This document shows positions 20,641 through 47,505 of a stretch of 64,000 bases of DNA, in pieces. The notes beneath the pieces were generated by a model that was not told where the DNA came from, did no database searches, and saw only the letters and a program-made list of their open reading frames with translations. The DNA comes from Selenomonas dianae (GTDB lineage Bacteria; Bacillota; Negativicutes; Selenomonadales; Selenomonadaceae): contig NZ_CP128650.1 of assembly GCF_030644225.1 (NCBI RefSeq), positions 1,788,001-1,852,000 on the forward strand, written 5' to 3'. Made by a program: the position numbers and the translations under genes. Numbering within the stretch: position 1 is the first letter of the stretch; each line of letters begins with the position of its first letter.

Positions 20641-20670
20641 TGTTTTCCCGACAGAAATGGAGGAGATTTT

Positions 20671-31532: not shown

Positions 31533-31708
31533 CTGCGGTGCGATGTCCCTAAGCGAACCCTAGTGGAGCAAGTGAGTAAAGCGTGCGGTACGCCCCGTCG
31601 GATTTCTTTCGTTCAAGCGAAGCGCGTTTAAGAAGTCCGACGGTATTTAAGCGTACAAGCACGCGATCACTTGCGCAACGAGGCGTTCGCGTGGGACTTG
31701 CACCGCAG
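31533..31708 (+). repeat. Interspersed palindromic element, copy A
   Basis: An imperfect palindrome of about 176 bases. Paired blocks from outside in are CTGCGGTGC/GCACCGCAG, GTCCC/GGGAC, GCGAAC/GTTCGC, GCAAGTGA/TCACTTGC, GCGTGC/GCACGC, GTACGC/GCGTAC and CCGTCGGA/TCCGACGG, closing near 31615-31630. The outermost arm is unique to this locus. It lies between ribE and ribBA, inside their transcript. It is homologous to the copies at 33520, 42934 and 47340. Confidence 0.92.
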
Positions 31709-31734
31709 AGAGAACGCCTATTACACCATGTTGT

Positions 31735-32370
31735 CTAAAATCCATGCTGTAAAAGGAAGTCCCGTGTAAGCCCTGCGCCCCATGCAGCAGCATTTTCGCC
31801 GCCGAGGAGTTTCAGCGCATATTTCCCAAGAATGTCCGTCTCGATGTTGAGCGGACTGCCCACGCGCTTCGCACCGAGATTCGTCACCGTGCGTGTGTGC
31901 GGAATCAGACTGACGGTAAAATCCGCTGTTCCTACCGCCGCGACCGTAAGACTGATCCCATCGAGAGCGACCGAACCCTTCTCGACAATCCCGCGCAGGA
32001 TCTCCGTATCAGCAGAAATTGTCATCAAAATAGCGTTGCCCTCCGCGCGCATCTCCGCGATCTCGCCCACGCCGTCGATATGCCCGCTGACAAAGTGTCC
32101 GCCCAGACGCGTCGTCGGGAGCAGCGCACGCTCAAGATTGAGCGGCGCACCGTGGGTCAGCCCCGCGAGTGACGTGCGCCGAATCGTCTCCGGCATGACC
32201 GCCGCACGAAATCCGTGCGCATCGAACTGTGTCACCGTAAGGCAGATCCCATTGACGGCGATGCTGTCGCCGATGTGCGCGTCCGATTGAACGAGCTTTG
32301 CACCGATGGCAATATTGCCGCCCGAAAGTCCGCCAAATGTGCCGACCTCCTCAATAATTCCTGTAAACAT
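31735..32370 (-). CDS. ribE: Riboflavin synthase, alpha chain
   Basis: Dismutates two lumazine molecules to riboflavin. It has 211 residues formed by two lumazine-binding repeats. The N-terminal MFTGIIEEVGTFGG is diagnostic. The first repeat has GDSIAVNGICLTVTQF and GGHFVSGHIDGVGEI; the second repeat has GSVALDGISLTVAAVG and the family-conserved KYALKLL. It lies 9 bases downstream of ribD. Confidence 0.97.
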   Translation of the reverse strand: MFTGIIEEVGTFGGLSGGNIAIGAKLVQSDAHIGDSIAVNGICLTVTQFDAHGFRAAVMPETIRRTSLAGLTHGAPLNLERALLPTTRLGGHFVSGHIDGVGEIAEMRAEGNAILMTISADTEILRGIVEKGSVALDGISLTVAAVGTADFTVSLIPHTRTVTNLGAKRVGSPLNIETDILGKYALKLLGGENAAAWGAGLTRDFLLQHGF

Positions 32371-32379
32371 TCCGCCCCC

Positions 32380-33480
32380 TCACTCTGCCGCACACGGATA
32401 GCCCGTGACAAGGATGTCCGCGCCCATCTGCTCGACGCTCACATCATGCAGGTGCAGCGCTGTCTGTGGGCTGTCGAAGCCCGTGCCGCCCACAGGCGTT
32501 TTTGCCGACGCGCCTCCCATCAGCATGGGGGCGATAAAGGCGTGCACCTTGTCCACATAGCCGCCCGCGAGGAATGACCAGTTGACCGTCCCGCCGCCCT
32601 CGACAAAAAGCGATGTGATCTCACGCGCACCGAGGTAGTCAAGCAGAGCGGCGATGTCCACACGCTCCGCACCGAGTGTCAGCGTTTCCACACCGCACGC
32701 ATGAAGAAGCCTGACGCGCCGCTGATCGGCACGTTCACTCACGACGATCAAGGTCGGTGCTGCACAGTCCGTCACGAGTTTTGCATCGAGCGGCGTGCGC
32801 CCCTCACTGTCGAGCACGATGCGCAGGGGACTGTGCCCCGTACCATCCGGCAGACGCGCGGTAAGGCTCGGATCGTCAGCGAGAACCGTGCCAATCCCGA
32901 CAAGAATGGCGTCGTATTCGTCACGGTACATATGCACACGTGCGCGTGCCGCCTCCCCCGTGATCCACTGCGATGCGCCCGTATGGCTTGCGATCTTGCC
33001 GTCGAGCGTCATTGCCGTCTTGAGCGTCACAAAGGGGCGTTTTTGCGTGATCCACTTGAGGAACACCTCATTCTGTCGCCGCGCCTCTGCCTCACACACG
33101 CCCGTTACAACTTCGATGCCCGCCTCCTTGAGAAGGACAAGCCCCCGTCCCGCAACGAGCGGATTCGGATCACAGAGCGCAACAACCACGCGCTTGATCC
33201 CCGCCGCAATCACCGCCTCAGCGCATGGCCCCGTACGCCCGTGATGGGCGCACGGTTCGAGCGTCACATAGAGGGTCGCGCCGCGTGCGAGTTCCCCCGC
33301 CATCCGTAGCGCATGAATTTCCGCGTGCGGCTCGCCCGCCGCACGATGCCACCCACTCGCGATGATCGTGCCATCCCGTACGATGACCGCGCCGACGAGC
33401 GGGTTCGGCGCCGTACGCCCGCGCGCGTACTCCGCGATCCGCAGAGCCTCGCGCATATAGGATTCGTCAATGTCGTTCAT
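32380..33480 (-). CDS. ribD: Bifunctional diaminohydroxyphosphoribosylaminopyrimidine deaminase / 5-amino-6-(5-phosphoribosylamino)uracil reductase
   Basis: The second and third steps of riboflavin synthesis. It has 366 residues. The N-terminal deaminase domain has zinc ligands in GEPHAEIHAL and EPCAHHGRTGPCAEAV. The C-terminal reductase domain (from about 145) has PFVTLKTAMTLDGKIASHTG and FVEGGGTVNWSFL. It is the first gene of the operon and begins about 300 bases downstream of the FMN riboswitch, with a palindromic repeat in between. Confidence 0.98.
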   Translation of the reverse strand: MNDIDESYMREALRIAEYARGRTAPNPLVGAVIVRDGTIIASGWHRAAGEPHAEIHALRMAGELARGATLYVTLEPCAHHGRTGPCAEAVIAAGIKRVVVALCDPNPLVAGRGLVLLKEAGIEVVTGVCEAEARRQNEVFLKWITQKRPFVTLKTAMTLDGKIASHTGASQWITGEAARARVHMYRDEYDAILVGIGTVLADDPSLTARLPDGTGHSPLRIVLDSEGRTPLDAKLVTDCAAPTLIVVSERADQRRVRLLHACGVETLTLGAERVDIAALLDYLGAREITSLFVEGGGTVNWSFLAGGYVDKVHAFIAPMLMGGASAKTPVGGTGFDSPQTALHLHDVSVEQMGADILVTGYPCAAE

Positions 33481-33519
33481 AGCAATCCCGTTCTGTTCTA
33501 TGCCGTCTTGGCAGGTTGA

Positions 33520-33684
33520 TGTTGTACTCCCCGCGAACGCTTAGTTGCGCAAGTGATCGTGCGCTTGTACGCTTAAATACCGTCGGACTTCTTAAACGCG
33601 CTTCGCTTGAACGAAAGAAATCCGACGGGGCGTACCCCGCACTTTACTCACTTGCTCCACTAAGGTTCGCTTGGGAGCACAACA
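33520..33684 (-). repeat. Interspersed palindromic element, copy B (inverted)
   Basis: Homologous to copy A but in the opposite orientation. The outer arm is TGTTGT/ACAACA, then CTCCC/GGGAG, where copy A has GTCCC/GGGAC. CTTAGT/ACTAAG also replaces the partly mismatched pairing of copy A. It lies between the FMN-riboswitch terminator and ribD, so it is part of the operon leader when transcription reads through. With copy A it brackets ribE-ribD. Confidence 0.92.
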
Positions 33685-33690
33685 CAATTT

Positions 33691-33732
33691 GCAAAAACAA
33701 AATGCCGCCGGAAGAATCCTCCTCCGGCGGCA
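33691..33732 (-). terminator. FMN-riboswitch-controlled intrinsic terminator
   Basis: On the minus strand TGCCGCCGGA pairs with TCCGGCGGCA and is followed by TTTTGTTTTT. It lies about 57 bases beyond the aptamer, as expected for attenuation when FMN is bound. Confidence 0.88.
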
Positions 33733-33788
33733 CATAAATCGTCCCAAGAACGCACTGATAACATCTTATCTGTGCTTCCTTTCATAGA

Positions 33789-33924
33789 CGCGCCTTTTCT
33801 CATCCAGACTGCGAAGGCAGCTGCCTTCTTCACTGTCGGCTTCGGAGTTTCACCGAATCGTGCCGCTCTCACGAGTGGCTTGCGGGCTGTACCGCCGGTG
33901 GGGATTTGCACCCCGCCTCAAAGA
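33789..33924 (-). promoter_or_regulatory. FMN riboswitch (RFN element)
   Basis: The conserved RFN blocks occur in order on the minus strand: CTTTGAGGCGGGGTGCAAA, then CCCCACCGGCGGTA and AGCCCGC, then CGGTGAAACTCCG, CCGACAGTGAAG, and GTCTGGATGAGAAAAGGC near the 3' edge. FMN binding should favour the downstream terminator and reduce expression of the ribD-led operon. Confidence 0.97.
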
Positions 33925-33940
33925 GCATCGTTCATCTGCT

Positions 33941-33969
33941 ATTGTAACACTATGGATTCGTACTGTCAA
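33941..33969 (-). promoter_or_regulatory. Promoter of the riboflavin operon
   Basis: On the minus strand TTGACA (33964-33969) and TACAAT (33941-33946) have a 17-base spacer. The -35 box overlaps the last codons of dhaM. Confidence 0.9.
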
Positions 33970-34352
33970 TCGTCAATCTTGACCGCGCCGCGCGTTTCCT
34001 CCGCACGCCGGACGACCTCATCGAGGCTGCCGCCGCAGACCGCAGTAATCGCCGCCACAACACTGCCCTCAACCACGGGGCAGTCTGCCACGCGCAGACG
34101 ACGCTCCGACATCTCCTCAAGGATTGTCTCGACCGTGAGGATGGAGCTGCCCGCGTCCACGAGAATGACAACGCCATCCGCGCCGTACACCGCATTGATC
34201 GCCGCAACGATCCGCGCATAGCTCGTCCCGAAACCGCCGTCCTCCATGCCGCCCGCAATCGCAATGTGTGCGTCCTTTGCCATCATCCGGCAGGTCTCGG
34301 CGATGCCGTGCGCGAGTGTCGCGCTGTGCGTTACAATCACAAGTCCGACCAT
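33966..34352 (-). CDS. dhaM: DhaM-like PTS EIIA component (dihydroxyacetone kinase phosphotransfer subunit)
   Basis: A 128-residue EIIA-mannose-type domain. The N-terminus MVGLVIVTHSATLAHGIA puts the phospho-accepting His at residue 9, as in DhaM, and the acidic VVILVDAGSS stretch follows. DhaM relays phosphate from HPr to the ADP-bound DhaL. No dhaK or dhaL is in the window, so it is either an orphan or its partners lie elsewhere. It starts 1 base after the terC-like stop and ends inside the riboflavin promoter. A regulatory phospho-sensor role is possible. Confidence 0.8.
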   Translation of the reverse strand: MVGLVIVTHSATLAHGIAETCRMMAKDAHIAIAGGMEDGGFGTSYARIVAAINAVYGADGVVILVDAGSSILTVETILEEMSERRLRVADCPVVEGSVVAAITAVCGGSLDEVVRRAEETRGAVKIDD

Positions 34353-34353
34353 A

Positions 34354-35025
34354 TCATTTTCTCCGCTGCAAATAGCCGCCAATGCCGCACACCGCGCCTG
34401 CGAGTGCCGCAGGAAGAAGGTGCTCCGCCTGCGGCAGCGCCGCCAAGATCATCACACCAATGGTACGGTCGTGTACGATCATCGTACCGCCCGTCCATCC
34501 GAGAATTGCCGTACCGAGCACGATGAGCACGGGATATTTCTCCATCAGCTTGCCGATCAGCTGACTGCCGCCCACCACGATGGGGATACTGATGAGAAGT
34601 CCGATCACAACAAGCAGAAAGTCGCCGTGCGACGCCCCCGCAATCGCGATCACATTGTCAATGCCCATTGCCGCATCCGCAACGATGATCGTCTTGACCG
34701 CGCCCGCGAACGTTTCCGCCGCCTCGATATGCGCCTCGCCGCCCGACGGTTTCATCAGCTTCACCGCAATCGGCAGCAGCACCAGCCCCCCGAGTGCCTG
34801 CAAGTAGGGCACGGAGAGCAGCTGCACCGCGAAATACGTCATGATGAGACGGACAACGATCGCCCCCGCCGTGCCGACGTAGATCGCACGATTTCGGAGG
34901 TGCGCGGGCAGCCGGTTCGATGCCATCGCAATGACGACGGCATTATCACCCGCGAGCACGAGATCGAGCACGATGATCGAAAAGAGTGCCACAAAGAACT
35001 GTGATGAAAAGAGTTCGACTTCCAC
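34354..35025 (-). CDS. TerC-family integral membrane protein (YjbE-like)
   Basis: A 223-residue protein with about seven hydrophobic segments. The family-defining motif LDLVLAGDNAVVIAMA is near residue 20, and a second acidic motif AAMGIDNVIAIAGASHGD is in the middle; these Asp/Asn pairs are thought to bind metal. Related proteins export manganese, often for co-translational loading of exported enzymes. It starts with GTG at 35025, 9 bases after htpG, and is followed at once by dhaM. The ion is inferred from the family only. Confidence 0.88.
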   Translation of the reverse strand: MEVELFSSQFFVALFSIIVLDLVLAGDNAVVIAMASNRLPAHLRNRAIYVGTAGAIVVRLIMTYFAVQLLSVPYLQALGGLVLLPIAVKLMKPSGGEAHIEAAETFAGAVKTIIVADAAMGIDNVIAIAGASHGDFLLVVIGLLISIPIVVGGSQLIGKLMEKYPVLIVLGTAILGWTGGTMIVHDRTIGVMILAALPQAEHLLPAALAGAVCGIGGYLQRRK

Positions 35026-35034
35026 GGTCTCTCC

Positions 35035-36984
35035 TTATTTTGCCATCATTTTTGCGAGCTTCTGCGCAAAGGCGACGGGATTCTCCGGCAGGATGCCCTC
35101 AATCAGCAGTGCCTGCGTATAGAGCAGGTCGCAGTAGTCCTTGAACTCCTCGCTGTCCTTGCCCGCCGCGTGCACCTCTTTCAGCTTCGCAAAGAGATCG
35201 TGATGCGGATTGATCTCAAGGATGCGCCGTGCCTTGAACATCGGATTGTTCATCTCGGCAAAGGTCTGCTCCATCGACAGCGACGGTCCCGCCTCATCCG
35301 CGACCAGACAGACCGCGCTTGAGCGCAGCCGCTGTGAGATCTTCACCTCGGCGATCTTATCCCCGATGGCTTCCTTCACATCCTTGATGAGATCGTCGTT
35401 CGCCTTGGCGATGTCCTCCGTTTCCTTCTTCGCCGCCTCGCTCTCCGCATCATCGAGACCCAAGTCGCCGCGGCTGATCGAATGGAAGTTTTTCCCCTCG
35501 TACTCATGCACCGTCTCAATCGCGAACTCATCCACGGGGTCGAGCAGGAACAGCACCTCCAACCCGCGCTCGCGCAGCTGCTCCATCTGCGGCAGCTGCT
35601 CAATCGTCGCCTGATCCTTCGCCGTCGCGTAGTAGATGCTCTTCTGGCTCTCGGGCATCCGCGCAACATACTCCTTGAGGGAGACGAGCGCCCCCTCCTT
35701 CGAGCTGTGGAAGAGCAGGAGATCCTTCAGCTTGTCCACCGTGTCGCGCCCCGCGTACATACTGTTGTAGACGCCGATCTTCAGCATACGGCCGTATTCG
35801 TTCCAGAACTTCTCGTAGTCCTCGCGGTTTTTCTCCAGTTTTTTGCCGAGCGTCTTGAGTACATTCTTCTCAAGCGCACGCCCGATGGTCTTGAGTTCAC
35901 GGCTCTGCTGCAAGAGTTCACGCGAGATGTTGAGCGAGAGGTCGGGCGAGTCCACAAGCCCCTTGACGAAACGCAGGTAGTCCGGCAGGAGATCCTTGCA
36001 CTTGTCCATGATGAACACATGGCGCGAGTAGAGCTGAATCCCCGGCTCATAGTCCGCCTGATAGAGGTTGAACGGCGCACGCGCGGGGATCTCAAGGAGT
36101 GCCGTGTACTCCACCGTGCCCTCTGCCTTCGTGTGGAACACCTCCATCGGTGCTTCCCACTCGTGGAACTGGTCACGGAAGAAATCGTTGTACTCCTCCG
36201 GCTTGATCTCGGACTTTGCACGCGTCCAGAGCGGCTGCATCGAGTTCAGCGTGCGCAGCTCCGTCTTTTTGATCTTCTCCGCGCCCTCGATGACCTTGCC
36301 CTCATCGTCGCGCGGCATCTCCTCCGTCGTGACGTTCATGCGAATCGGATAGCGCACATAGTCGGAGTATTTCTTCACGAGGCTTTCCAATGTGAACGTA
36401 TCCGTATAGTCCGTCTCGCCCTCCGTGAACTCCTTCGCGAGATGGATCGTCACCGTCGTGCCGCGCGTCTCCTTCTCCGCGTCCTCAATCGTGTAGCTGC
36501 CGTCGCCCGCCGACTCCCAACGCGTCGCCTGCTGCTCACCCGCACGACGCGTTACGATCGTCACACGCTCCGCAACCATAAATGCCGAGTAGAAGCCAAC
36601 GCCGAACTGCCCGATCAGCTCCTTGTCGGGTGTGCCGCCGCTTTCCTCCTTCGCCTTTGCGAGCTGCTCCATGAACGCCTTCGTGCCCGACTTTGCAATC
36701 GTGCCGATGTTCTCCACGACCTCCGCACGCGACATACCGATGCCGCTGTCCGAGATCGTCAGCGTCTTGCTCTCCTTGTCGGGCACGAGGAAAATCTCAT
36801 AGTTCTCATCGCCCTCAAGCATATCGCGGTTCGTCAGGCTCTCGAAATGCAACTTGTCCATCGCATCCGACGCATTCGAAATCAGCTCGCGCAGGAAAAT
36901 CTCGCGGTTCGTGTAGATCGAGTGGATCATCAGATCGAGCAGCTGCTTTGTCTCCGCTTGAAACTCAAACGTTTCCTTTGCCAT
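35035..36984 (-). CDS. htpG: Molecular chaperone HtpG (Hsp90)
   Basis: A dimeric ATP-dependent chaperone of 649 residues. The start at 36984 (MAKETFEFQAETKQLLDLMI) follows GGGGAG; the longer reading is rejected because the family begins here. The N-terminal GHKL ATPase has ELISNASDAMDKL, TISDSGIGMS, GTIAKSGTK and IGQFGVGFYSAF. The middle domain has LNISRELLQQ. The C-terminal dimerisation domain follows from about 520. It is first of a compact htpG-terC-dhaM group. Confidence 0.97.
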   Translation of the reverse strand: MAKETFEFQAETKQLLDLMIHSIYTNREIFLRELISNASDAMDKLHFESLTNRDMLEGDENYEIFLVPDKESKTLTISDSGIGMSRAEVVENIGTIAKSGTKAFMEQLAKAKEESGGTPDKELIGQFGVGFYSAFMVAERVTIVTRRAGEQQATRWESAGDGSYTIEDAEKETRGTTVTIHLAKEFTEGETDYTDTFTLESLVKKYSDYVRYPIRMNVTTEEMPRDDEGKVIEGAEKIKKTELRTLNSMQPLWTRAKSEIKPEEYNDFFRDQFHEWEAPMEVFHTKAEGTVEYTALLEIPARAPFNLYQADYEPGIQLYSRHVFIMDKCKDLLPDYLRFVKGLVDSPDLSLNISRELLQQSRELKTIGRALEKNVLKTLGKKLEKNREDYEKFWNEYGRMLKIGVYNSMYAGRDTVDKLKDLLLFHSSKEGALVSLKEYVARMPESQKSIYYATAKDQATIEQLPQMEQLRERGLEVLFLLDPVDEFAIETVHEYEGKNFHSISRGDLGLDDAESEAAKKETEDIAKANDDLIKDVKEAIGDKIAEVKISQRLRSSAVCLVADEAGPSLSMEQTFAEMNNPMFKARRILEINPHHDLFAKLKEVHAAGKDSEEFKDYCDLLYTQALLIEGILPENPVAFAQKLAKMMAK

Positions 36985-37090
36985 AGTATCGTTCTCCCCT
37001 TGTATTCGATTATTTTGCATAGTTCTCTAAAGTATGCAATTCCAAACTGTGAATATAGTACACCAAAAATGACAAAAAGTCAAAAATAAG

Positions 37091-38132
37091 TTATTCACTG
37101 CAACAATTGAGTATCCGATGCAAAGATGCCTCCATACTGTACCGACCAAGAACGGCAGCGTGACCGCGTGCGGCAATGCGCTCGCGCTCATCTTCGTGCG
37201 CAAGATAATATGAAATCTTTTCGATCAGTTCCTCCGTCGAGCGAAAAATCGCCATGTCCTGCTCCGGCACAAGCCCCGCATAGTCCTCGCGTTCGTCAAC
37301 GAGCTGAAAACTGCCCGTCGCCATGATCTCGAACGTGCGCGGATTGACCCCCTTATGTGCGGAGAGATGGATGTTCAGGCAGATTTTCGAGCGTGCATAG
37401 AGTTCCGCAGCCTCCTCCGGCAGCACCATGCCATTGGTAAGATATTTTGTGATGTATGGATATTTTCTCTGAAAGAGGTGCTTCTTCCAAAAATATCGCT
37501 CTTCATAAAACGGGCCATAAATTGCCATGCGCCATCCATTGCGCACGGCATGGGCAGCAGCCTGTTCCAAGATATGCAGACGATTTCGATACGGCGCCCC
37601 CATAAAGGCAATATCAATCTCCTTATCCCGGCGTGCCTCCACCCTCGCATATGCTGCGTTATATCCCACGGGACAATATGCAGCGGGGATCTGATACCGC
37701 TCCTGCAAAAACAGCACATCCCGTTTCTCAAAGACATAGATGCGATCACAATATGGGAAAAACGCCTCCCATCCTCCCTGACCAACAATGCTGTCCACGA
37801 GCCAGCACAGAATTTTCGGGGGGAGGGGTAAACGCTTGTTTGATTTTCTTTTGATCAACCTCGTCCAATATCGCCTTTGGGATATTGATGAACAGGATCA
37901 CATCGGGATGAAACTTCTCCATCGTCCGATAAAGATTTTCCCGCCATTGGTGAAGGTAACGCTCCCGCCCCTGATGAAAGCCGAGTTTATCCAGTTTCTT
38001 CTCGGCGTACGAACATATTTCCCGATACGGCTCAGTTGGAAAGAAACGCACGATATGTCCCATTTTCTCAAGCGTCTCTGTGATATGCAAGAAGCCATCA
38101 AATCGCGCCGACATAACACATACAATATGCAT
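37091..38132 (-). pseudogene. CgeB-like glycosyltransferase, frameshifted at a poly-C tract
   Basis: Two overlapping frames together make one glycosyltransferase. The first (38132 down to about 37820) begins MHIVCVMSARFDGFLHITET and ends its good part at IPKAILDEVDQKKIKQAF. The second frame continues with PPKILCWLVDSIVGQGGWEA, GAPYRNRLHILEQAA and the C-terminal HKGVNPRTFEIMATGSFQLV typical of CgeB-type glycosyltransferases. The switch falls in CCCCTCCCCCC (minus strand); removing one C from the six-C run (37820-37825) would restore an uninterrupted protein of about 347 residues. It may be phase variation, a true mutation or a sequencing error. The partner glycosyltransferase is 38 bases upstream. 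Confidence 0.82.
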
Positions 38133-38170
38133 TCCGATCTCCTATCCTTGCGTCCCCCATGCTCGGCTTT

Positions 38171-39346
38171 TCATGAGGACATAACCTCCCGCATCAGATT
38201 CTCCCACTTTGTCCAGATGATCTTGGGGGCATAGGCGCGCATGGATACACGCGCCGCATTCCCCATCTTCACGCGTAAATTGCGGTCACGCATAAGGATT
38301 GTCATTTTCTCCGCGAGGGGTTCTGCCCCGTCTGCTGCAAGCAGCCCATTCACACCATCATCAATCAGTTCGGCGACAGAAACACAACTTTGATAGCCGA
38401 TCAGCGGCAATCCCATGCTCATCGCCTCCGTATGCGCAAGGCTGAAACCTTCGTATGCACTCGGCGCAACACAGAGATCAGCGCCCTGTAACACGCGCGG
38501 GATTTCCGCCGTCGTCCCGCAAAACAAAATGCGATCTTCCAGACCTGCCGCCGCAATCATCCGCAGCATTTCCTTCTGATAGCTTTTGCTGTCCTCTGCT
38601 CCCCAGAGTTCGAGCGTCCAGTCGGGGAACTCTGCCGCAATCTTACAAAATGCCGCAATCAAGAGATGCGGGCGCTTGTGGTTGCGTACCATACGCCCAA
38701 TAAAGATGATCTTGTACATCTCTTTTTCACGCGCCAAATCCGCCTGCTCCGTATACTGAGGAACGACGTTGCCGATGGGAACGACGCGCACGTTTGGGAT
38801 GTATTTTTGCACACGCTCGGCAAAGCCCGGCAGGAGCACTTGGAACACGGCACAGCGTTCGAGTGCGGGCAGTTCCTCCTTCGGATGGGTCTGAAACAGA
38901 TCCACGGGATCGCCGTGCGACATGATAATGACGGGCGTTTCGATCCGAAGATCACAGAGGAGCATCTTTGCCGAGCTCGTTTGAAAACAGATAATGACAT
39001 CGGGCTGTACCTCATCCAGTACCGCCGCCATATTCTTTTGGATGTGTTTCGCAAAAAATTCATCGTTGACGCTGCGTCCATATCGCTGTCCGAATGCACG
39101 CAGCACCTCGCGCTTGATCTTGAGCGCGGTCGGGAACGTGCAGTGTGTCCCGCGAAAATGCTGGAGATTGTACGCCGTCACACGTTCGTCCAGCGGATAG
39201 AAAAACGCCCCCTCACGGTCGTCCGTGTAGACCGTCGTCACCGTATGCCCGCGCCGCACCATCTCATTCGCAAACGCGACATTCACCTTCGCCGCTCCGC
39301 CCGTATCTCCGACCATCTTTGAGAAATTCGCCAGCAGTATCCGCAT
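38171..39346 (-). CDS. Glycosyltransferase family 4
   Basis: A 391-residue GT-B glycosyltransferase. The N-terminal part has MRILLANFSKMVGDTGGAAK (donor-side loop) and a mid-protein linker. The C-terminal domain has IIFIGRMVRNHKRPHLLIAA and the EX7E-type region SAYEGFSLAHTEAMSMGLPL. The start at 39346 follows TTGGAG. It is paired with the frameshifted CgeB-like glycosyltransferase, so both probably act on a surface polysaccharide or a glycosylated protein. The flagellum is a possible target, but nothing in the sequence fixes the acceptor. Confidence 0.9.
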   Translation of the reverse strand: MRILLANFSKMVGDTGGAAKVNVAFANEMVRRGHTVTTVYTDDREGAFFYPLDERVTAYNLQHFRGTHCTFPTALKIKREVLRAFGQRYGRSVNDEFFAKHIQKNMAAVLDEVQPDVIICFQTSSAKMLLCDLRIETPVIIMSHGDPVDLFQTHPKEELPALERCAVFQVLLPGFAERVQKYIPNVRVVPIGNVVPQYTEQADLAREKEMYKIIFIGRMVRNHKRPHLLIAAFCKIAAEFPDWTLELWGAEDSKSYQKEMLRMIAAAGLEDRILFCGTTAEIPRVLQGADLCVAPSAYEGFSLAHTEAMSMGLPLIGYQSCVSVAELIDDGVNGLLAADGAEPLAEKMTILMRDRNLRVKMGNAARVSMRAYAPKIIWTKWENLMREVMSS

Positions 39347-39480
39347 GTGATGCTCCAATTCCATTCATTTCCGTTCCATCAGGATAAATTTATTGTAACA
39401 AATCCGAAAGTCTTTCGCAAATATCTCCGCGCATTTACACATCAAAATCTTTACCTCTGCATAATCCATTTTCTCTCCCT

Positions 39481-39492
39481 CTATGCTATAAT
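39481..39492 (+). promoter_or_regulatory. Extended -10 promoter of the SIMPL-acyltransferase pair
   Basis: The plus strand carries TGCTATAAT (TATAAT at 39487-39492 preceded by TGC), an extended -10 element. The -35 region is poor. It is about 45 bases upstream of the SIMPL start. Confidence 0.6.
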
Positions 39493-39536
39493 GAACGCAG
39501 TTTTAGGCATTCTGCTCGAAAGAACGGAGGGTTATC

Positions 39537-40253
39537 ATGAAGCATTTTTCATTGGGTTCACTCGTATGCGCGGCAATATTTGCCCTCGCGCTGGTGATTC
39601 CGACGGGGACGGCATCCGCCGAGGAGGCAGTGCCGACGCTGACGATGAACGGGGTCGGCTCGGCTCAGATCGCGCCCGATATGGCGGAGGTCACGCTCGG
39701 CGTTGTAACGGAGGCAAAGGATGCGGCACGGGCGCACGCGGACAATGCGGCACAGGCGGCACGCGTACAGAACGCGGTAAAGGCGCTCGGCATCGCAGAG
39801 CGCGACATTCAGACGACACGCTATGATTTCGAGCCGGTCTACGATGTGAAGGACAATGGGCGCAGTGTGACGACGGGCTATACAGTAACGAACGCGGTCG
39901 TCGTGAAGGTGCGCAACCTCGCCAATGTAGGCAAGGTGATTGATGCTGCACTCGCAAACGGCGCGAACCGTGTGGACTCCCTCGAATTCTCGGCGAGTGA
40001 CCCGCGTGCGGCAAAGAGTGCCGCGCTTGCCGATGCGGCGCGTGACGCACGCAGCAAGGCGGATGCCGTGGCGCGTGCGCTCGGTGTCCGTATCGTCCGC
40101 GTGCTGAATGTCTATGCAGATGCACAGTCCCATACGCCGCGCAACTATATGCCGATGATGATGGCAAAGGAGGCGTACGATGCCGCAACGCCGATTGCGG
40201 CGGGGGAGCTGTCCTATGAAGCCTCGGTGAACATCTCCTATGTCATCGAGTAA
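39537..40253 (+). CDS. SIMPL-domain (DUF541) secreted/periplasmic protein
   Basis: A 238-residue exported protein. Residues 1-28 form a signal peptide (hydrophobic CAAIFALALVIPTG, then ASAEEA cleavage). The mature part is a single SIMPL domain, recognised by LTMNGVGSAQIAPDMAEVTL, IQTTRYDFEPVYD, a hydrophobic central strand and the closing AALADAARDARSKADAVARA. Family members occur in the periplasm or bind interleukin-receptor kinases; the bacterial function is unclear. The ribosome-binding site is AACGGAGG. Its last 14 bases overlap the acyltransferase start, so the two are coupled. Confidence 0.9.
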   Translation: MKHFSLGSLVCAAIFALALVIPTGTASAEEAVPTLTMNGVGSAQIAPDMAEVTLGVVTEAKDAARAHADNAAQAARVQNAVKALGIAERDIQTTRYDFEPVYDVKDNGRSVTTGYTVTNAVVVKVRNLANVGKVIDAALANGANRVDSLEFSASDPRAAKSAALADAARDARSKADAVARALGVRIVRVLNVYADAQSHTPRNYMPMMMAKEAYDAATPIAAGELSYEASVNISYVIE

Positions 40254-41376
40254 GCGGGCGCGTGTTTCTGCGGTCGAGGCGATTCGCGGTATCTCCATGA
40301 TGGGCGTGATCGGCATCCACATCGGTGCAGAGTACCTTGCGAATCCATCGCCGAACATTCATCTTGTGGCGCTTTTTGACATCGGTACGCGCTTTGCCGT
40401 GCCGATTTTTTTCTTTATCTCGGCGTTCGGCCTCTTCTACGGGCAGTCGCCGTCTGCGCCGTTCTCCTACCGCGATTTCCTCGTGCGGCGCGGACGCGCG
40501 GTCATGATCCCCTATCTCGTATGGTCGCTTTTCTATCTCCTCCATGATGCATACGTCTACGGGGTGGGCTTCCCGCCGATCACCGCACTGCCGGGGATTC
40601 TCTTCTTCGGCAATGCAAAATATCAACTCTACTTCATGGTGATCCTGATCTGGTTCTATCTGCTGATGCCGCTCTGGCGCGTTCTCCTCGCGCGTATGAC
40701 CCTGCCGCTGCTCGCGGCGATTCTCCTCGTGCAGGTCGCATTTGACTACTGGTCGAGCTTTGATACGGCGTTCAATCTCTACGTCTACGCTCTGCCCGAG
40801 GGGACGCTGCTGCGTGCGCTGCTCTTCTATCGGCTGAACTACTGGGTCATGCACTACGTCTTTATCTTCCTGCTCGGCGGATATGTCGCGCTGCATTTTG
40901 GCGCGTTCCGCGCGTGGATGGAACGCAATACGGTGCGGCTCTATGCGTTCGCCATCCTCAGCCTCGCCGCCCTCCTCGCGTGGTACTACAAGCTGCTGCT
41001 CGTGGATGGATACACACCGCTCGAAGGGATCTACACGGCGCATCAGCTCTCGCCGCTCGGCATCCTCTACACCATCGGTGCCACGCTCGCGCTCTTTGCG
41101 TTCTTTACCCGACTGGGGACGGAGAACATTCTTGGGCGCACATTTCAACTCCTCGGAAAACACTCCTATTTTATCTATCTTGGACATCCGATTGCAATCA
41201 CCTACCTGCTCATGGCGATTCACGGAAGCGGTCACGTCCTCACCGCGCCGCTTGCGCTCGCAATGTATGCGGCGACGCTCGTGCTGACGCTCCTAGGTGC
41301 GATTGTTGTACGGAGGATTGGTGAGCGCGTACCAATCGTAAATGAGCTGACGATCGGACTGAAGCCGAAAAAGTAA
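40240..41376 (+). CDS. Acyltransferase family 3 membrane protein
   Basis: A 378-residue integral membrane O-acyltransferase with about ten transmembrane segments. The N-terminal motif VEAIRGISMMGVIGIHIGAE contains the catalytic His of the family, followed by FFFISAFGLFYG and RRGRAVMIPYLVWSLFYLL. Such enzymes acetylate or succinylate surface glycans or exported lipids. It overlaps the SIMPL gene by 14 bases, an unusual pairing. It is followed by a bidirectional terminator shared with metK. Confidence 0.92.
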   Translation: MSSSKRARVSAVEAIRGISMMGVIGIHIGAEYLANPSPNIHLVALFDIGTRFAVPIFFFISAFGLFYGQSPSAPFSYRDFLVRRGRAVMIPYLVWSLFYLLHDAYVYGVGFPPITALPGILFFGNAKYQLYFMVILIWFYLLMPLWRVLLARMTLPLLAAILLVQVAFDYWSSFDTAFNLYVYALPEGTLLRALLFYRLNYWVMHYVFIFLLGGYVALHFGAFRAWMERNTVRLYAFAILSLAALLAWYYKLLLVDGYTPLEGIYTAHQLSPLGILYTIGATLALFAFFTRLGTENILGRTFQLLGKHSYFIYLGHPIAITYLLMAIHGSGHVLTAPLALAMYAATLVLTLLGAIVVRRIGERVPIVNELTIGLKPKK

Positions 41377-41387
41377 ATTGACAGTGC

Positions 41388-41430
41388 AAAAGGCTGCCGC
41401 CGAAGATAATTCTTCGTGCGACAGCCTTTT
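41388..41430. terminator. Bidirectional terminator between the acyltransferase and metK
   Basis: AAAAGGCTG pairs with CAGCCTTTT and an inner CGAAG/CTTCG stem closes the loop, between two convergent genes. Confidence 0.88.
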
Positions 41431-41475
41431 CTTATGCTTTGCGTGGAGCACACATGGCAGAGTTTGTATTAAGAC

Positions 41476-42660
41476 TTACAGCCCTGCTTCTTTCTTCAGC
41501 AGCTCCGCCTTGTCCGTCTTTTCCCATGGCAGATCGACATCCGTGCGGCCGAAATGTCCGTACGCCGCCGTCTGGCGATAGATGGGACGGCGGAGATCCA
41601 GCATCTTGATGATGCCCGCAGGACGCAGATCAAACGTCTTCTGAACAAGCGCGACGATCTTCTCCTCGTCGATCTTGCCCGTACCGAACGTGTCGACCAT
41701 GATGGAGACGGGATGTGCAACACCGATGGCATACGCAAGCTGAATCTCCACACGATCCGCAAGCCCCGCCGCAACGATGTTCTTTGCGACATAGCGCGCC
41801 GCATACGCCGCGCTGCGGTCAACCTTCGTGGGATCCTTGCCCGAGAACGCACCGCCGCCGTGACGCGCCCATCCGCCGTAGGTATCGACAATGATCTTGC
41901 GCCCCGTGAGCCCCGAGTCGCCGTGCGGGCCGCCAATGACGAACTTGCCCGTCGGGTTGACGAAATACTTTGTTTCCGCACGCAGCAGCTCCGCCGGAAC
42001 GATCTCCTTGATGATCTTTTCGATCATATCCTTGCGGATGGTCTCAAGATCAACCGCCTCGTCGTGCTGCGTGGAAATAACGATGGTATCGACGTAGACG
42101 GGCCTGCCGTCCTCATACGCCACTGTAACCTGCGTCTTGCCGTCGGGGCGCAGATACTTCAGCTCACCGCTCTTGCGTACGTCTGTGAGACGGCGTGCGA
42201 GCTTATGCGCGAGAACAGTTGTGAGCGGCATATACTCGGGCGTTTCGTTCGTCGCATAGCCGAACATCATGCCCTGATCGCCCGCACCAATCGCCTCTGC
42301 AGCGTCCATCTTGCCTTCGCGCGACTCAATCGCCTGATTGACCCCCTGCGCGATGTCAGGCGACTGCTCGTCAAGCGAGACGAGAATGCCGCAGGTGTCG
42401 GCATCGAAGCCGTAGCTGGCGTTCGTATAACCGACCTCACGCACCGTCTGGCGGATGATCTTCGGAATATCGACATAGCAGGTGGTCGAGATCTCACCGA
42501 CGACGTGCGCCTGTCCCGTCGTAACGAGGGTCTCACACGCAACACGCCCCTGCGGATCCTGCGCGAGGATGGCGTCGAGAATGCTGTCCGAGATCTGATC
42601 GGCGAGTTTGTCGGGATGACCCTCGGTGACAGACTCGGATGTAAAGAGCATCTTCTTCAT
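41476..42660 (-). CDS. metK: S-adenosylmethionine synthetase
   Basis: Makes SAM from methionine and ATP. It has 394 residues, the family length. Signature motifs are [20 protein letters not shown] at the N-terminus, [32 protein letters not shown] and [16 protein letters not shown]. The ATG at 42660 follows GGGAGG. It is controlled by an S-box (SAM-I) riboswitch, so expression falls when SAM is plentiful. Confidence 0.99.
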
Positions 42661-42716
42661 TTAGAACCTCCCTTAGTTCGTAAAAATAGATGGATAAGGA
42701 TAACCTCACTAAGAAA

Positions 42717-42739
42717 GCCTCCCCTAAGACAAGGGAGGC
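42717..42739 (-). terminator. SAM-riboswitch-controlled terminator
   Basis: On the minus strand GCCTCCC pairs with GGGGAGGC and is followed by TTTCTT. It lies about 12 bases beyond the aptamer 3' edge and 57 bases before metK. Confidence 0.88.
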
Positions 42740-42750
42740 CGGAACTGCCA

Positions 42751-42854
42751 CTCTCATCTCATAGGCGCTCGCCTATAGGAATTGGCACCGTTGACACATA
42801 CGTCATGGTTGCCGCAGCTTCATCGGGCCATTCCCTCCACTGCTCTGGATGAGG
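42751..42854 (-). promoter_or_regulatory. SAM-I (S-box) riboswitch
   Basis: The conserved blocks are clear: CTCATCCAGAG, GGAGGGAATGGCCCGATGAA, GCTGCGGCAACC, GGTGCCAATTCC and the closing GATGAGAG, which pairs with CTCATC at the 5' edge (P1). Confidence 0.97.
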
Positions 42855-42876
42855 TATATTCACTTCTATGTTTCGC

Positions 42877-42905
42877 ATTGTAACGAATGCGCGCCGCGTT
42901 GTCAA
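42877..42905 (-). promoter_or_regulatory. Promoter of metK
   Basis: On the minus strand TTGACA (42900-42905) and TACAAT (42877-42882) with a 17-base spacer, just upstream of the S-box. Confidence 0.92.
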
Positions 42906-42933
42906 GGACTATTTTCACAGGCATACACAATTA

Positions 42934-43103
42934 TTGAGCAAGTCCCACGCGAACGCCTCGTTACGCAAGTGATCGTGCGCTTGTACGCTTAAATACCGTC
43001 GGACTTCTTAAACGCGCTTCGCTTGAACGAAAGAAATCCGACGGGGCGTACCGCGCTCTTTACTCACTTACTCCACTAGGGTTCGCTTTGGGACTTCGCT
43101 CAA
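42934..43103 (-). repeat. Interspersed palindromic element, copy C (inverted)
   Basis: A copy of the palindrome in the orientation of copy B. The outer arm is TTGAGC/GCTCAA, then GTCCC/GGGAC. The helix that reads GCGTGC/GCACGC in copy A is GCGC/GCGC here. It lies between the metK promoter and the end of coaBC, so it sits in the coaBC 3' untranslated region. Confidence 0.92.
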
Positions 43104-43113
43104 CGTAGAAGAT

Positions 43114-44346
43114 TCATCCCCGCTTCTGAAACGTCTCTTCCAACCTGTCGAGAATCACGCCCGCAAGCGCCGCCTTTGCCATGAGCGGATGATCCTCCGC
43201 GCGTCCGTCCGCATAGAAAATCTGCACATGATTCGTCGGCACGCCGAACCCCGCATCCTGCTCCGCGACATTATTCGCGACAATAAAGTCGAGGTTCTTC
43301 TTCGCGAGTTTCCCGCGTGCATATTCCGCGACGTTCTGGGTCTCCGCCGCAAAGCCGACGAGGATCTGATGTTTCTTTTGTTGTCCGAGCTCATAGAGGA
43401 TGTCGGGGTTACGCGTGAGCTTGAGCGTGAGTTCGCCGTCCGATTTCTTGATTTTGTGTTCTGCCATCTCTGCGGGACGATAGTCCGCCACCGCCGCCGC
43501 CTTGATGACCGCATCCACGCCGTCATACTCCGCGCGTACCGCCGCGTGCATATCACGCGCACTCCGCACATCCACACGCCGCACGCCCGTCGGTGTTGCG
43601 AGCGGTGTCGGTCCTGCGACGAGAATCACCTCCGCGCCGCGCCGCGCCGCCTCGGCGGCGACGGCGAAGCCCATGCGCCCCGTCGAGCGGTTGCCGAGGA
43701 AGCGCACGGGGTCGAGTGCCTCCTCCGTCCCCGCCGCCGTCACGAGGATGCGCCGCCCTGCAAGGCTTTGCCCATGCGCGAAATGGTTCTCGACGACACG
43801 CACAACCTCCACGGGCTCGGGCAGACGTCCCGCCCCCGTTGTGCCACACGCGAGCTGTCCCACGGCGGGCGGGATGATCGTCGCGCCGCGCTCTGTCAAG
43901 CGACGTACATTTTCCTGCGTGACGGAATTCTCCCACATGCCCGTATTCATCGCGGGCGCAATGATGAGCGGCGCACGCGTCGCGAGGACAAACGTCGTCA
44001 GCATATCATCCGCCATCCCTGCCGCCGCCTTTGCAATAAAATTCGCCGTTGCAGGCGCGACCAGAACGAGCTCCGCGAACGCCGCGAGTGCAATGTGCGC
44101 GACATGATGCTGCGGCTCCCCCCACATTGTCTCCGCGACGGGCTGTCCCGTGATCTCGCGAAACGTGAGCGGCGTGACAAAGGAGGTCGCTGCACGCGTC
44201 ATGACGACGCGCACATCTGCGCCCGCCTTTTTGAGACGGCTTGCGACCTCCACCGCCTTGTATGCGGCGATGCCGCCCGTCACACCAAGGACGATGCGCC
44301 GCCCCGCGAGTGCGCCCACGTCAGACACTCTCTGTGCAGAGGTCAT
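43114..44346 (-). CDS. coaBC: Bifunctional phosphopantothenoylcysteine decarboxylase / phosphopantothenate-cysteine ligase
   Basis: Coenzyme A synthesis. About 410 residues. The N-terminal CoaC flavoprotein has [20 protein letters not shown], the catalytic His region [11 protein letters not shown] and [10 protein letters not shown]. The C-terminal CoaB has [20 protein letters not shown] and the KIKK segment with KLTRNPDIL. The ATG at 44346 overlaps rpoZ by 26 bases and has GGAGGG upstream. A GTG at 44319, just after the rpoZ stop, would give a tighter family N-terminus; the start is not settled. The gene is last in the yicC-remA-gmk-rpoZ-coaBC run. Confidence 0.95.
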
Positions 44347-44551
44347 AGCTGATCTTGCCCTCCGCGATCTCCTCAAACGCATTCGTGACATTCTTCGTCG
44401 AACGCGCACGCTCGGACTTCACGGGATCTCCCTCCAGCAGCTGGCGTGCACGCTTCGCCGCGAGCACCACCACACCATAGCGGCTGTCCACCTTCGTCAG
44501 CAGCTCATCCGTCGACGGATTGACCATACCGATTTCCACATTCGTTTTCAT
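44321..44551 (-). CDS. rpoZ: DNA-directed RNA polymerase omega subunit
   Basis: A 76-residue assembly subunit of RNA polymerase. The start at 44551 ([20 protein letters not shown]) follows AGAGGT. The core reads [20 protein letters not shown], then [17 protein letters not shown]. The gene is preceded by a deleted copy of the palindromic element and followed by overlapping coaBC. Confidence 0.95.
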
Positions 44552-44590
44552 ACCGTACCTCTTATCTTCCATTTCTACAGTGCAACACCC

Positions 44591-44653
44591 CGAAGCGTTT
44601 CCGGGCAAAACACGCAATCACCTGCGTGACGAGGCGTTCGCGTGGAACGTGCA
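44591..44653 (+). repeat. Deleted copy of the palindromic element, copy E
   Basis: The right half of the element with internal losses: CGAAGCG, a shortened centre, then CACGCAATCACCTGCGTGAC and GAGGCGTTCGCGTGGAACG. It aligns with the 3' arm of copy A (GCGATCACTTGCGCAACGAG, GCGTTCGCGTGGGAC). The left arm is gone. It lies between gmk and rpoZ. Confidence 0.75.
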
Positions 44654-44663
44654 TCGTAAGGCT

Positions 44664-45257
44664 TCAAATTTCAAACTGCGCCGGATCCATATCCGCACGC
44701 AGACGCTCCGCCGCGAGAATCGTCTGAATCCGATCCGTCGCAGCCTCCACCGTATCGTTGAGCACGGCGTAGCGGTAACGCTTTCCGAGCCGAATCTCAT
44801 CGCGTGCCGCCGCAAGGCGACGCGCAAGGCTCTCCTCCGACTCCGTCCCGCGCCCTGTGATGCGACGGCGCAGTTCCTCAAGCGAGGGCGGCAGGAGAAA
44901 GATGAACGTCCCGTCGGGGCAGCGCTCCATCACATTCAATGCGCCCTGCGTGTCGATTTCGAGCAGGATGTCCTCGCCCACCGCACGCCGCGCCTCAATC
45001 GACGCGAGCGGCGTACCGTAGTAGTTGCCGTACACATCCGCATACTCAAGGAACTCGCCCGCCGCAATCATTTTCTCAAACTCTGCACGCGTGCGAAAAT
45101 AGTATTCACGTCCGTCCTGCTCCCCCGCACGCGGTGCGCGGGAGGTCGCGGAAACAGAGTAGGCAAGCCCCCGTTCGCGTGCGAGCAGTTCCTTGCAGAC
45201 CGTCCCTTTTCCCGTCCCCGATGCACCCGAAATTACAATGAGAAGCCCCTTTTTCAC
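44664..45257 (-). CDS. gmk: Guanylate kinase
   Basis: Phosphorylates GMP to GDP. It has 197 residues. The P-loop is [20 protein letters not shown], followed by the GMP-binding [20 protein letters not shown] and [14 protein letters not shown]. The start is GTG at 45257 and overlaps the remA stop by 4 bases. The order yicC-remA-gmk-rpoZ-coaBC is the conserved Firmicutes arrangement. Confidence 0.98.
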
Positions 45258-45505
45258 TCTGCTGCCTCCTTTGCGCTCGTCATGCGCCCCGCAATCGTCT
45301 CCGGCAAAAGTGCCGAGAGTACAATGTGACCGCTGTCCAGTACGATGACGGCACGCGTCCGCCGCTTATACGTCGCATCGATGAGCCGTCCCGCATCCCG
45401 CGCATCCTGCACCATACGCTTGACGGACATGGAACTTGGTGCGACGATGGCGACCATGCGCCCCGCGAGAACGATGTCGCCGAACCCGATACTGACCGTC
45501 TCCAT
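45254..45505 (-). CDS. remA: RemA-like (DUF370) extracellular matrix regulatory protein
   Basis: An 83-residue DNA-binding protein of the RemA family, seen in [40 protein letters not shown] and the [19 protein letters not shown] core. In Bacillus RemA activates biofilm matrix and osmoprotection genes; the role in Negativicutes is untested. It lies between yicC and gmk, overlapping gmk. Confidence 0.93.
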
Positions 45506-45508
45506 ACG

Positions 45509-46390
45509 TCACTCCAAATTCTGAACCTGCTCGCGCAGCTTCTCAACCTCGTTCTTCATCGCGACAACAATCTGCTGTGCGGCGGCATTGCTCGCCTTTG
45601 ATCCGATGGTGTTCGTCTCACGGTTGATTTCCTGCAAAAGGAAGTCGAGCCGCCGTCCGACGGGCTCCGCCTCCGCAAGAATCGCGCGGAACTGGGCAAA
45701 ATGGCTTGCGAGCCGCACGAGTTCCTCCGTGATGTTCACGCGGTCGGCATAGAGTGCCGCCTCCTGCACAAGGCGCGTCTCATCGGGCGTGACCTCCTTG
45801 AACTCCGCAAGCACCTCCGCGAGGTGCGCACGGTAGTCCGCCACGATCTGCGGTGCAATCGCCTTCACCTGCGCACGCTGCTCCTCAAGCCGTGCAAGCC
45901 GCTTCTCAAAGTCACGCGCGATATGTGCGCCCTCGGCAAGCCGCATCGCATCGAGTGCGGTGAGTGCCTGCGCCGCCGCATCCAGAAAGACCGCACGCGC
46001 CCCCGCGATGTCCGTCTGCTCCCGCACGGAGATCACGCCCTCGTACGCCGCCGCCATCTGAACGCCGCCCGTCAGCGGCGCATCCACCGTATGCGCGACC
46101 CTGCCGAGTGCCGTGTAATACGCACGCGCCAAACCCTCGTTGACGTGGACATCGTACTGCTTTTCGCTGCGATCCTCAAAGTTCACATAGACATCGAGCT
46201 TGCCGCGTGCAACGCGCGTGCGGATCAGGTCGCGCAGATCATTCTCCCACGCGCCGAACGCACGCGGCATATGCGGCGCAATCTCAAGAAACCTCTGATT
46301 CACCGCCTTGATCTCAACCGTGACACAGTAGTCCGCCGTTTCAGCCGTCCCCGCGCCATAGCCCGTCATGCTCCTGCGCGGCGCACTCAT
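45509..46390 (-). CDS. YicC/YloC-family endoribonuclease
   Basis: A 293-residue protein. The diagnostic N-terminal SMTGYGAGTA and the C-terminal DUF1732 part (RRLDFLLQEINRETNTIGSK) are present. YicC proteins have been described as endoribonucleases that influence small-RNA stability; that assignment comes from relatives. The start at 46390 overlaps the dapF stop by 4 bases (ATGA), so the two genes are coupled. Confidence 0.92.
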   Translation of the reverse strand: MSAPRRSMTGYGAGTAETADYCVTVEIKAVNQRFLEIAPHMPRAFGAWENDLRDLIRTRVARGKLDVYVNFEDRSEKQYDVHVNEGLARAYYTALGRVAHTVDAPLTGGVQMAAAYEGVISVREQTDIAGARAVFLDAAAQALTALDAMRLAEGAHIARDFEKRLARLEEQRAQVKAIAPQIVADYRAHLAEVLAEFKEVTPDETRLVQEAALYADRVNITEELVRLASHFAQFRAILAEAEPVGRRLDFLLQEINRETNTIGSKASNAAAQQIVVAMKNEVEKLREQVQNLE

Positions 46391-47226
46391 AGCGCCCCCT
46401 GCCATTCGCCCGTGAACACCGGCTCAGCGGGACCTGTCATAAGGATATGCCCATCCGCACGCCACTCCACATGAATCACGCCGCCATCAACTTCGATGTC
46501 CGCCGCACGGTCGAGCACATCGTTCAGCACGCCCGCCGTCAGCGTCGCACACGTCCCCGTGCCGCACGCGAGCGTGATCCCCGCACCGCGTTCCCAAACG
46601 CGCATACGCGCGTGTTTGCGGCTCCTCACCTCGACGAACTCCGTATTGATCTTACGCGGAAATGCGGGATGGTTCTCGAACTGCGCCCCCAGTTCCGAAA
46701 GAGGGAAGCCCTCTACATCGTCCACAAAGATCACGCAATGGGGATTGCCCATCGAGACGCACGTCATCTGGTACTCCGTACCATCCACCGTAAGCGGCTG
46801 TGCCACCACGCGCTCTGCGCCGAAGCCCGCTACGGGTATTTTCTCCCCTTCGAGTACAGGCACGCCCATATCCACCTCGACCGCCGTCACCGCACCGTCC
46901 TGCGTGATGATGCGCGGCACCATCGTCCCCGCCAGCGTCTCAATCGTGAACTGCTGTGTTTTCATGCGCCCGTAGTCATAGAGATACCGCGCGAAACAGC
47001 GAATGCCATTCCCGCACATCTCCGGCTCCGTCCCGTCGGGGTTAAACTCGCGCATCCGCACATCCGCCATCTCCGAGGGACAAACCACCATCAGTCCATC
47101 CGCACCAATGCCGAAATGCCGATCGCACATCTTCACCGCGAGTGCCGCAAAGTCCATCGGCTCTTTATCTAGGAAATCCACTACCACGAAATCGTTGCCG
47201 CAGCCCTGCCACTTTGTAAACTTCAT
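46387..47226 (-). CDS. dapF: Diaminopimelate epimerase
   Basis: Converts LL- to meso-diaminopimelate for peptidoglycan and lysine. It has 279 residues. Both catalytic cysteines are visible, in PEMCGNGIRCFARYLY and in ITLACGTGTCATLTAG. The N-terminal KWQGCGNDFVVVDF is typical. It heads the operon continuing into yicC. A TTGCGC/TACAAT promoter lies just upstream. Confidence 0.97.
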   Translation of the reverse strand: MKFTKWQGCGNDFVVVDFLDKEPMDFAALAVKMCDRHFGIGADGLMVVCPSEMADVRMREFNPDGTEPEMCGNGIRCFARYLYDYGRMKTQQFTIETLAGTMVPRIITQDGAVTAVEVDMGVPVLEGEKIPVAGFGAERVVAQPLTVDGTEYQMTCVSMGNPHCVIFVDDVEGFPLSELGAQFENHPAFPRKINTEFVEVRSRKHARMRVWERGAGITLACGTGTCATLTAGVLNDVLDRAADIEVDGGVIHVEWRADGHILMTGPAEPVFTGEWQGAL

Positions 47227-47250
47227 CCATTACACCGCCTTGCTGCACGT

Positions 47251-47279
47251 ATTGTACTATGAAACGTCCCCATGCGCAA
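47251..47279 (-). promoter_or_regulatory. Promoter of the dapF operon
   Basis: On the minus strand TTGCGC (47274-47279) and TACAAT (47251-47256), 17-base spacer. Confidence 0.8.
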
Positions 47280-47289
47280 GGCGCAGCGC

Positions 47290-47318
47290 TTGCCTATTGT
47301 ATGATTGACGTGTATAAT
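47290..47318 (+). promoter_or_regulatory. Promoter of rqcH
   Basis: TTGCCT (47290-47295) and TATAAT (47313-47318) with a 17-base spacer. The transcript would begin near 47326, just before palindromic copy D, making the element part of the rqcH leader. Confidence 0.82.
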
Positions 47319-47339
47319 TTTCTATGAAGTATACAAAGA

Positions 47340-47505
47340 ATACGGAATGCCAAAGCGAACCCTAGTGAAGCAAGTGAGTAAAGTGCTCGGTACGCCCCGT
47401 CGGAGTTCTTTCGTTCAAGCGAAGCGCGTTTAAGAACTCCGGCGGTATTTAAGCGTACAAGAGCGCGATCACTTGCGCAACGAGGCGTTCGCGTGGCATC
47501 CGTAT
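47340..47505 (+). repeat. Interspersed palindromic element, copy D
   Basis: A copy in the orientation of copy A. The outer arm is ATACGG/CCGTAT, then ATGCC/GGCAT in place of GTCCC/GGGAC. The central helix is GGAGTTCTT/AAGAACTCC, where copy A has a mismatch, and GCTC/GAGC replaces the GCGTGC/GCACGC block. It lies entirely in the 5' leader of rqcH. Confidence 0.93.

Follow-up and report, generated by a model that had tools for sequence, protein, structure and literature searches.

A dispersed hairpin family of Selenomonas-type bacteria with covarying stems, near-constant loops and a one-strand bias

Results

Palindrome copies in the Selenomonas dianae window

The window analysed here, a stretch of 64,000 nucleotides of the Selenomonas dianae genome (contig NZ_CP128650.1, positions 1,788,001 to 1,852,000, forward strand), carries four full copies and one half copy of an imperfect palindrome of 165-176 bp, and we describe the mobile family of long hairpins to which they belong, in which the stems change in matched pairs and the loops stay near-constant. 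Copy A (31533-31708, plus strand; apical loop 31610-31629) lies between ribE and ribBA among the minus-strand rib genes, and copy B (33520-33684, minus strand; apical loop 33594-33613) between the FMN riboswitch and ribD. Copy C (42934-43103, minus strand; apical loop 43010-43029) has coaBC on one side and the metK SAM riboswitch on the other. Copy D (47340-47505, plus strand; apical loop 47412-47431) has a promoter-like site at 47290-47318 on one side and, on the other, an RqcH/fibronectin-binding-like gene at 47534, which scores under the curated cut-offs of its best models. Half copy E (44608-44656, plus strand) is a right arm only, between gmk and rpoZ, at a site where a relative (G011) holds a full copy. 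The adjoining genes are ribBA, ribE, ribD, metK, coaBC, rpoZ, gmk, dapF and the RqcH/fibronectin-binding-like gene. A first-pass annotation, made from the letters alone, had reported the four full copies between genes, and all four were found in intergenic places; the changes that it named in the inner and central helices are likewise seen in the copy alignment, but it mentioned neither half copy E nor the opposite orientation of B and C relative to A and D. When A and B were folded singly, the z-scores were -10.65 and -10.64, respectively, and no shuffle out of 200 was as stable in either case. A scan of the window with Rfam 15 gave matches at the gathering score only for SAM, FMN and five tRNAs and for no palindrome copy, and laxer limits gave chance matches only at the element.

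Paired stems covary around fixed mismatches

We aligned 144 distinct full copies from unevenly sampled genomes, 49 partial matches having been set aside beforehand. Covariation was measured on alignment A2, which holds 46 diverse copies and 51 pairs; L023, in which another repeat has taken the place of the left arm, was excluded, and three copies from the window were included in addition. Pairing was kept in 93.9% of cells, compared with 82.5% in shuffled and 30-42% in slid alignments, and 32 pairs were changed on both sides compared with 20.1 in shuffles. Moreover, both sides had changed in 286 cells, whereas shuffling gave 85.7, and none of the 500 shuffles reached any of these three values. 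Shuffling leaves the relatedness of the copies in place, so the covariation result is a strong one but does not amount to a probability. Changes on both sides were found in all six helices; in the outermost one, helix 1, only 71.3% of cells are paired. These results support maintenance of the folded form, as the first-pass annotation had supposed; it had looked to further copies for broken pairing, and with 144 copies aligned the pairing was kept on the 46 diverse ones.

Some positions of the rod are mismatched throughout. No standard pair was found at positions 39/159, 42/155 and 44/153 in any of the 144 copies, and at 36/162 a standard pair was present in only four. Outside the core, the arms paired with 23.4 kcal/mol within a copy and 15.1 kcal/mol across copies (112 of the 144 copies, the other 32 having failed the anchors). 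For the outermost arms, beyond the helix that adjoins the core, the values were 5.85 and 5.19 kcal/mol (cross-copy), the highest of 20 shuffles being 5.57. This barely exceeds the cross-copy value, and therefore pairing does not reach far outward in most copies.

One strand appears constrained, irrespective of the neighbouring genes

On double-stranded DNA, G.T and A.C mismatches are expected to be about equally frequent. In 42 pairs with a Watson-Crick share of 85% or more, we counted 115 G.U and 51 A.C; 29 of these columns favour G.U, eight A.C and five neither. A similar picture was obtained from copy pairs less than 6% apart, with 27 G.U, 7 A.C, 18 double changes and 13 other breaks (two divergence bins summed, the copy pairs being disjoint within each bin but not between bins). 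We then applied a strand-symmetric test, in which G.U was forbidden in folding and single mismatches inside stems were counted. For the 144 genus copies the counts were 152 G.U, of which one fixed column supplied a large part, 28 A.C and 161 others; for the 52 copies of other genera they were 35 G.U, 13 A.C and 47 others. Since G.U is more frequent than A.C on one of the strands, the fold of that strand appears to be constrained; it is the strand bearing CGTTCAAGCGNAGCGCGTTT, as RNA or single-stranded DNA. The same bias disfavours a double-stranded cruciform, a form that had been offered at the outset as an alternative to RNA.

The copying of one arm onto the other had also been proposed at the outset. 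The mismatches described above are near-invariant, and therefore plain arm copying fails to explain the covariation. More generally, arms might be corrected without selection, template switching in replication or gene conversion copying arm to arm and recombination between copies spreading the outcome. The arms do recombine, as indicated by in-place inversions of the element between species at two sites (A and B) and by site A of G007, where the centre has been replaced, and in genome G061 the 21-bp basal stems of two hairpins are perfect, with only matched changes to distinguish them. However, such correction should heal the four mismatched positions, and it predicts no excess of G.U over A.C; we regard it as an improbable source of the pattern.

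A further explanation is that the palindrome acts in cis within messenger RNA, being co-transcribed with its neighbours and changing the processing or stability of their transcripts, as has been reported for ERIC in Yersinia (excerpts of PMC2229807). Genes were called with a home-made hexamer model; on this basis, one flank had no called gene in four of the 144 copies, and six copies overlapped the end of a called open reading frame. Among the 140 copies flanked by called genes left and right, the neighbours are tandem in 121 cases, divergent in 10 and convergent in 9; the prevalence of tandem genes would suit a cis-acting element, as would the place of copy D between a promoter-like site and a start codon. 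Nevertheless, the tandem copies divide into 55 sense and 66 antisense (P = 0.36), and antisense copies are biased in the same direction (G.U 52, A.C 30) as sense copies (G.U 39, A.C 15). This unbiased orientation argues against a role inside the mRNA of the neighbours, and we hold a cis-acting mRNA element to be unlikely.

The element is mobile within the genus

The host genome (G000; one contig, 2,391,311 bases) gave 44 blastn matches, which correspond to 40 copies. Matches were obtained in 12 of 13 genus genomes including the host, with 11-48 in each, and in none of eight genomes from other genera; with G021 added, 12 of 14 genus genomes are carriers, G002 and G021 being without matches. Plasmid records gave no element match by blastn, and IMG/VR contigs gave no match to the exact 26-base element pattern.

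The sites of the window copies were compared with those of relatives. Among 12 relatives, site A is filled in G007, filled in inverted orientation in G010, without the centre in G009 and cut short in G004, and the remaining eight lack the element. At site B, a full copy with the same flanks but opposite orientation is present in G005 and another full copy in G004, while G006, G007 and G012 have remnants with the centre deleted and the other seven have none. At site C, the copies of G005 and G011 have different outer arms. Six relatives (G004, G008, G011, G003, G002 and G021) have a short, empty site D; in G001 and G012 it is filled, with a nested insert in each, and in G005, G006, G007, G009 and G010 it is occupied by other inserts. 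Besides the full copy of G011, site E has remnants in G006 and in the host. A given site can be occupied in one species and vacant in another, and the element is therefore mobile; this mobility had not been recognised in the first-pass annotation. Insertion into a pre-existing palindrome was ruled out at A, D and E, where the empty sites of relatives, inspected by eye, lack such arms, and therefore the palindrome arrived with the element.

Other inserts and gaps were observed alongside these copies. Four of the 40 host copies are interrupted at one common left-arm position by about 120 bp of inserted sequence (contig C1, 58063-58183, 1465335-1465457, 2209307-2209427 and 2361859-2361979), and the site D copy of G012 also carries a left-arm insert; these inserts are possibly a second element that targets the hairpin element. 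A separate repeat, which starts with GGAAGCACTGATAAATTCAGC and ends with TTATCAGCGATTCCT, is present at sites C and D in G004, G001 and G010 (L140, L141, L149), one copy being nested inside the hairpin element at site D of G001. A stretch of 0.64 Mb of the host contig (810000-1450000), picked after the fact, holds only one of the 40 copies.

Two young subfamilies have transposon-like ends

Longer left ends mark out two clusters, each of 12 copies. These young subfamilies have 22-bp terminal repeats and units of 220-239 bp, and both ends were recognised in 17 of the 24 copies (10 and 7 per cluster). An 8-bp target duplication, with at least seven of the eight flanking bases agreeing, was found in 10 of these 17 testable copies (4/10 and 6/7), all at offset 0; random 8-mers agree to this degree in 0.04% of cases, a control in which no offset was allowed, while the test itself allowed one base either way. 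The orientation of the interior relative to the ends is opposite between the two subfamilies. The first-pass annotation had reckoned with the termini of a miniature inverted-repeat transposable element (MITE) as the cause of the symmetry; the ends of the young subfamilies fit a MITE-like origin, but this does not account for the covarying interior.

One end of the element carrying the ISL3 gene (PF01610) of the host starts with GGCTCTTTGTCA, like one of the subfamily ends. At the ISL3 loci L275, L276, L282 and L287, one end is 3-5 mismatches from the subfamily end, and at L277 six. ISL3 elements duplicate 8 bp of target. PF01610 was detected in 6 of the 14 genus genomes, one of which (G008) has only a fragment. 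Taken together, the ends, the 8-bp target duplications and the likeness to one end of ISL3 suggest that a DDE-type enzyme probably moved the young copies, with ISL3 as the likeliest candidate.

Most relatives examined in other genera keep the apical loop

We built a covariance model (R1) from the genus copies, as had been recommended at the outset, and it found matches in nine other genera of Selenomonadaceae, in total 41 of 151 family genomes and 10 of 30 genera including the host genus. R1 matches in ten of these genomes, drawn from six other genera, have E-values from 2.1e-37 upward and often form inverted pairs spaced about 30 to 270 bp apart. Among 40 R1 matches from other genera, the apical loop CGTTCAAGCGNAGCGCGTTT was present with at most three mismatches in 27, of which 20 were exact. 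The 52 copies from other genera used for folding had been collected with the loop pattern, which in part predetermines how conserved their loops look; this is not the case for the 40 R1 matches. The folded copies form a long rod, with stems that do not resemble those of the host genus in sequence; in folding windows of 220 bases the median rod length was 208, and only two of the 52 fell below 150. The basal motif WAAGCGNARC occurs in 22 of the 52 copies and on the other strand in none, and GCGTNAAG occurs in 32. With at most one mismatch, the loop pattern was found in 36 of 380 genomes of the class and in 9 of 102 genera, that is, eight beyond the host genus, one of them in another family, while the reversed pattern gave one hit.

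In family f10 (L332, L333), the loop motif with its last base changed is present in two genomes, with six copies in G167 and a similar long rod. In genus g24 (L306, L311, L316, L324, L329), the hairpins occur as inverted pairs, and several of these pairs are contained in larger units that have different ends. Inverted duplication of target DNA, considered as the origin of the locus-specific basal arms, was unsupported at one G061 hairpin site, where the counterparts in the distant genomes G034, G077 and G088, compared by eye, contain no clear copy of an arm. Elsewhere in the window, a 115-nt direct repeat (89%) lies at 16294-16408 and 16915-17029, with an inverted relative at 20554-20641.

Discussion

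Stems that change in matched pairs around near-constant loops suggest that evolution preserves a folded single strand, probably RNA. We consider it moderately probable that the palindromes are a non-autonomous, MITE-like mobile family, the body of which is a long hairpin that selection on the fold of one strand maintains. In the host genus, young copies may have been moved in trans by an ISL3-type DDE transposase. The folded strand, more likely RNA than single-stranded DNA, would be bound by a protein at its apical and internal loops, and this putative loop-binding protein would serve the maintenance or spread of the element and not the neighbouring gene; a role of the fold in the element's own maintenance or spread is thus the one that we favour. 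Whether the family is a new class of structured RNA is a more doubtful matter. It might be one that has dispersed over Selenomonadaceae genomes as a repeat, in the form of a rod (about 165-215 nt) that is putatively recognised by a protein, keeps its apical and internal loops fixed, lets its stems co-change and uses different transposon ends in different genera; we propose this only tentatively.

Several observations weigh against selection on the fold and transposase-driven spread. Kinship among the copies means that the covariation counts are not independent tests, and pairing is not strictly kept, as copy pairs less than 6% apart show the 13 breaks other than A.C. Unique bases in paired columns keep pairing in 9 of 28 cases, which at face value contradicts a strict constraint on each copy; this count was set aside because unique bases favour transversions. 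In other genera, 13 of the 40 R1 matches differ from the apical loop at four or more positions. On the side of movement, PF01610 was not found in 8 of 14 genus genomes, including the subfamily-bearing G004 and G010 (L201, L207, L253), and the second end of the ISL3 elements was looked for and not found. Copies A-E are without subfamily-type ends, site A having a 4-bp repeat only, and the target duplication is poor in 7 of the 17 testable copies. Moreover, a DDE transposase would not need a hairpin.

A REPIN-like or IS200/IS605-like element, mobilised in the form of a single-stranded hairpin through a Y1 (RAYT) transposase, is very unlikely: the single-strand constraint and the compensatory arms resemble those of REPINs as excerpted (PMC3116915), and inverted hairpin pairs occur in other genera, but a search of the host genome gave no Y1 transposase, Y1 matches among 30 genomes picked by the author were present in 9 of 22 hairpin-bearing genomes and in 6 of 8 with few or no hairpins, which is no positive association, and the young copies have target duplications.

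Palindromic repeats are commonly regarded as passive DNA. The MITE-like hairpin family proposed here offers many natural variants, with variable stems, near-constant loops, in-place inversions and matched empty sites, and such variants make selection as RNA, as single-stranded DNA or as plain DNA directly testable. The conserved loop could serve as bait for the putative partner protein.

The first-pass annotation knew of no named element that fits, and this holds for Rfam but not for the wider kind, since mobile palindromic repeats such as REPINs are already known (excerpts of PMC3116915). REPINs, doublets of REP sequences that form hairpins and are accompanied by RAYT transposases, are dispersed mobile hairpins for which compensatory changes in the arms are described in the same excerpts, and such changes are also found in the Selenomonas element. 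However, the latter conserves internal and apical loops in place of two end motifs, its rod is longer, the host genome gave no match to the accompanying Y1 transposase and the young copies have DDE-type ends. ERIC, also called IRU or RU-1, is a palindromic repeat of 127 bp that likewise folds as a single long stem-loop (PMC2229807, PMC2267715; excerpts); it has TA at its ends and differs in hosts and length, and, set against the description of ERIC only, the young Selenomonas copies are distinguished by 22-bp ends and an 8-bp target duplication. YPAL (RU-2) of Yersinia, a 168-bp repeat with filled and empty sites (excerpts of PMC2229807), is of a similar kind but has other hosts, and, judged by its description only, it is set apart from the Selenomonas family by the latter's conserved loops and variable stems across genera.

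An ISL3-family MITE resembles the young copies in one subfamily end, which begins with GGCTCTTTGTCA like one end of the host ISL3 copy, and in the 8-bp target duplications. In contrast to such a MITE, the unit described here is mostly a covarying structured hairpin, and some relatives in other genera sit in larger units. The literature searched, which comprised open-licence PMC papers only, does not describe the hairpin family, and neither do the excerpts of PMC6429828. The principle of mobile palindromic hairpin repeats is already known from ERIC, YPAL and REPIN, at least as these are excerpted. Within the reach of our searches, four features look new, namely the lineage itself, an architecture that conserves loops and varies stems from genus to genus, the bias towards one strand and the presence of DDE-type ends.

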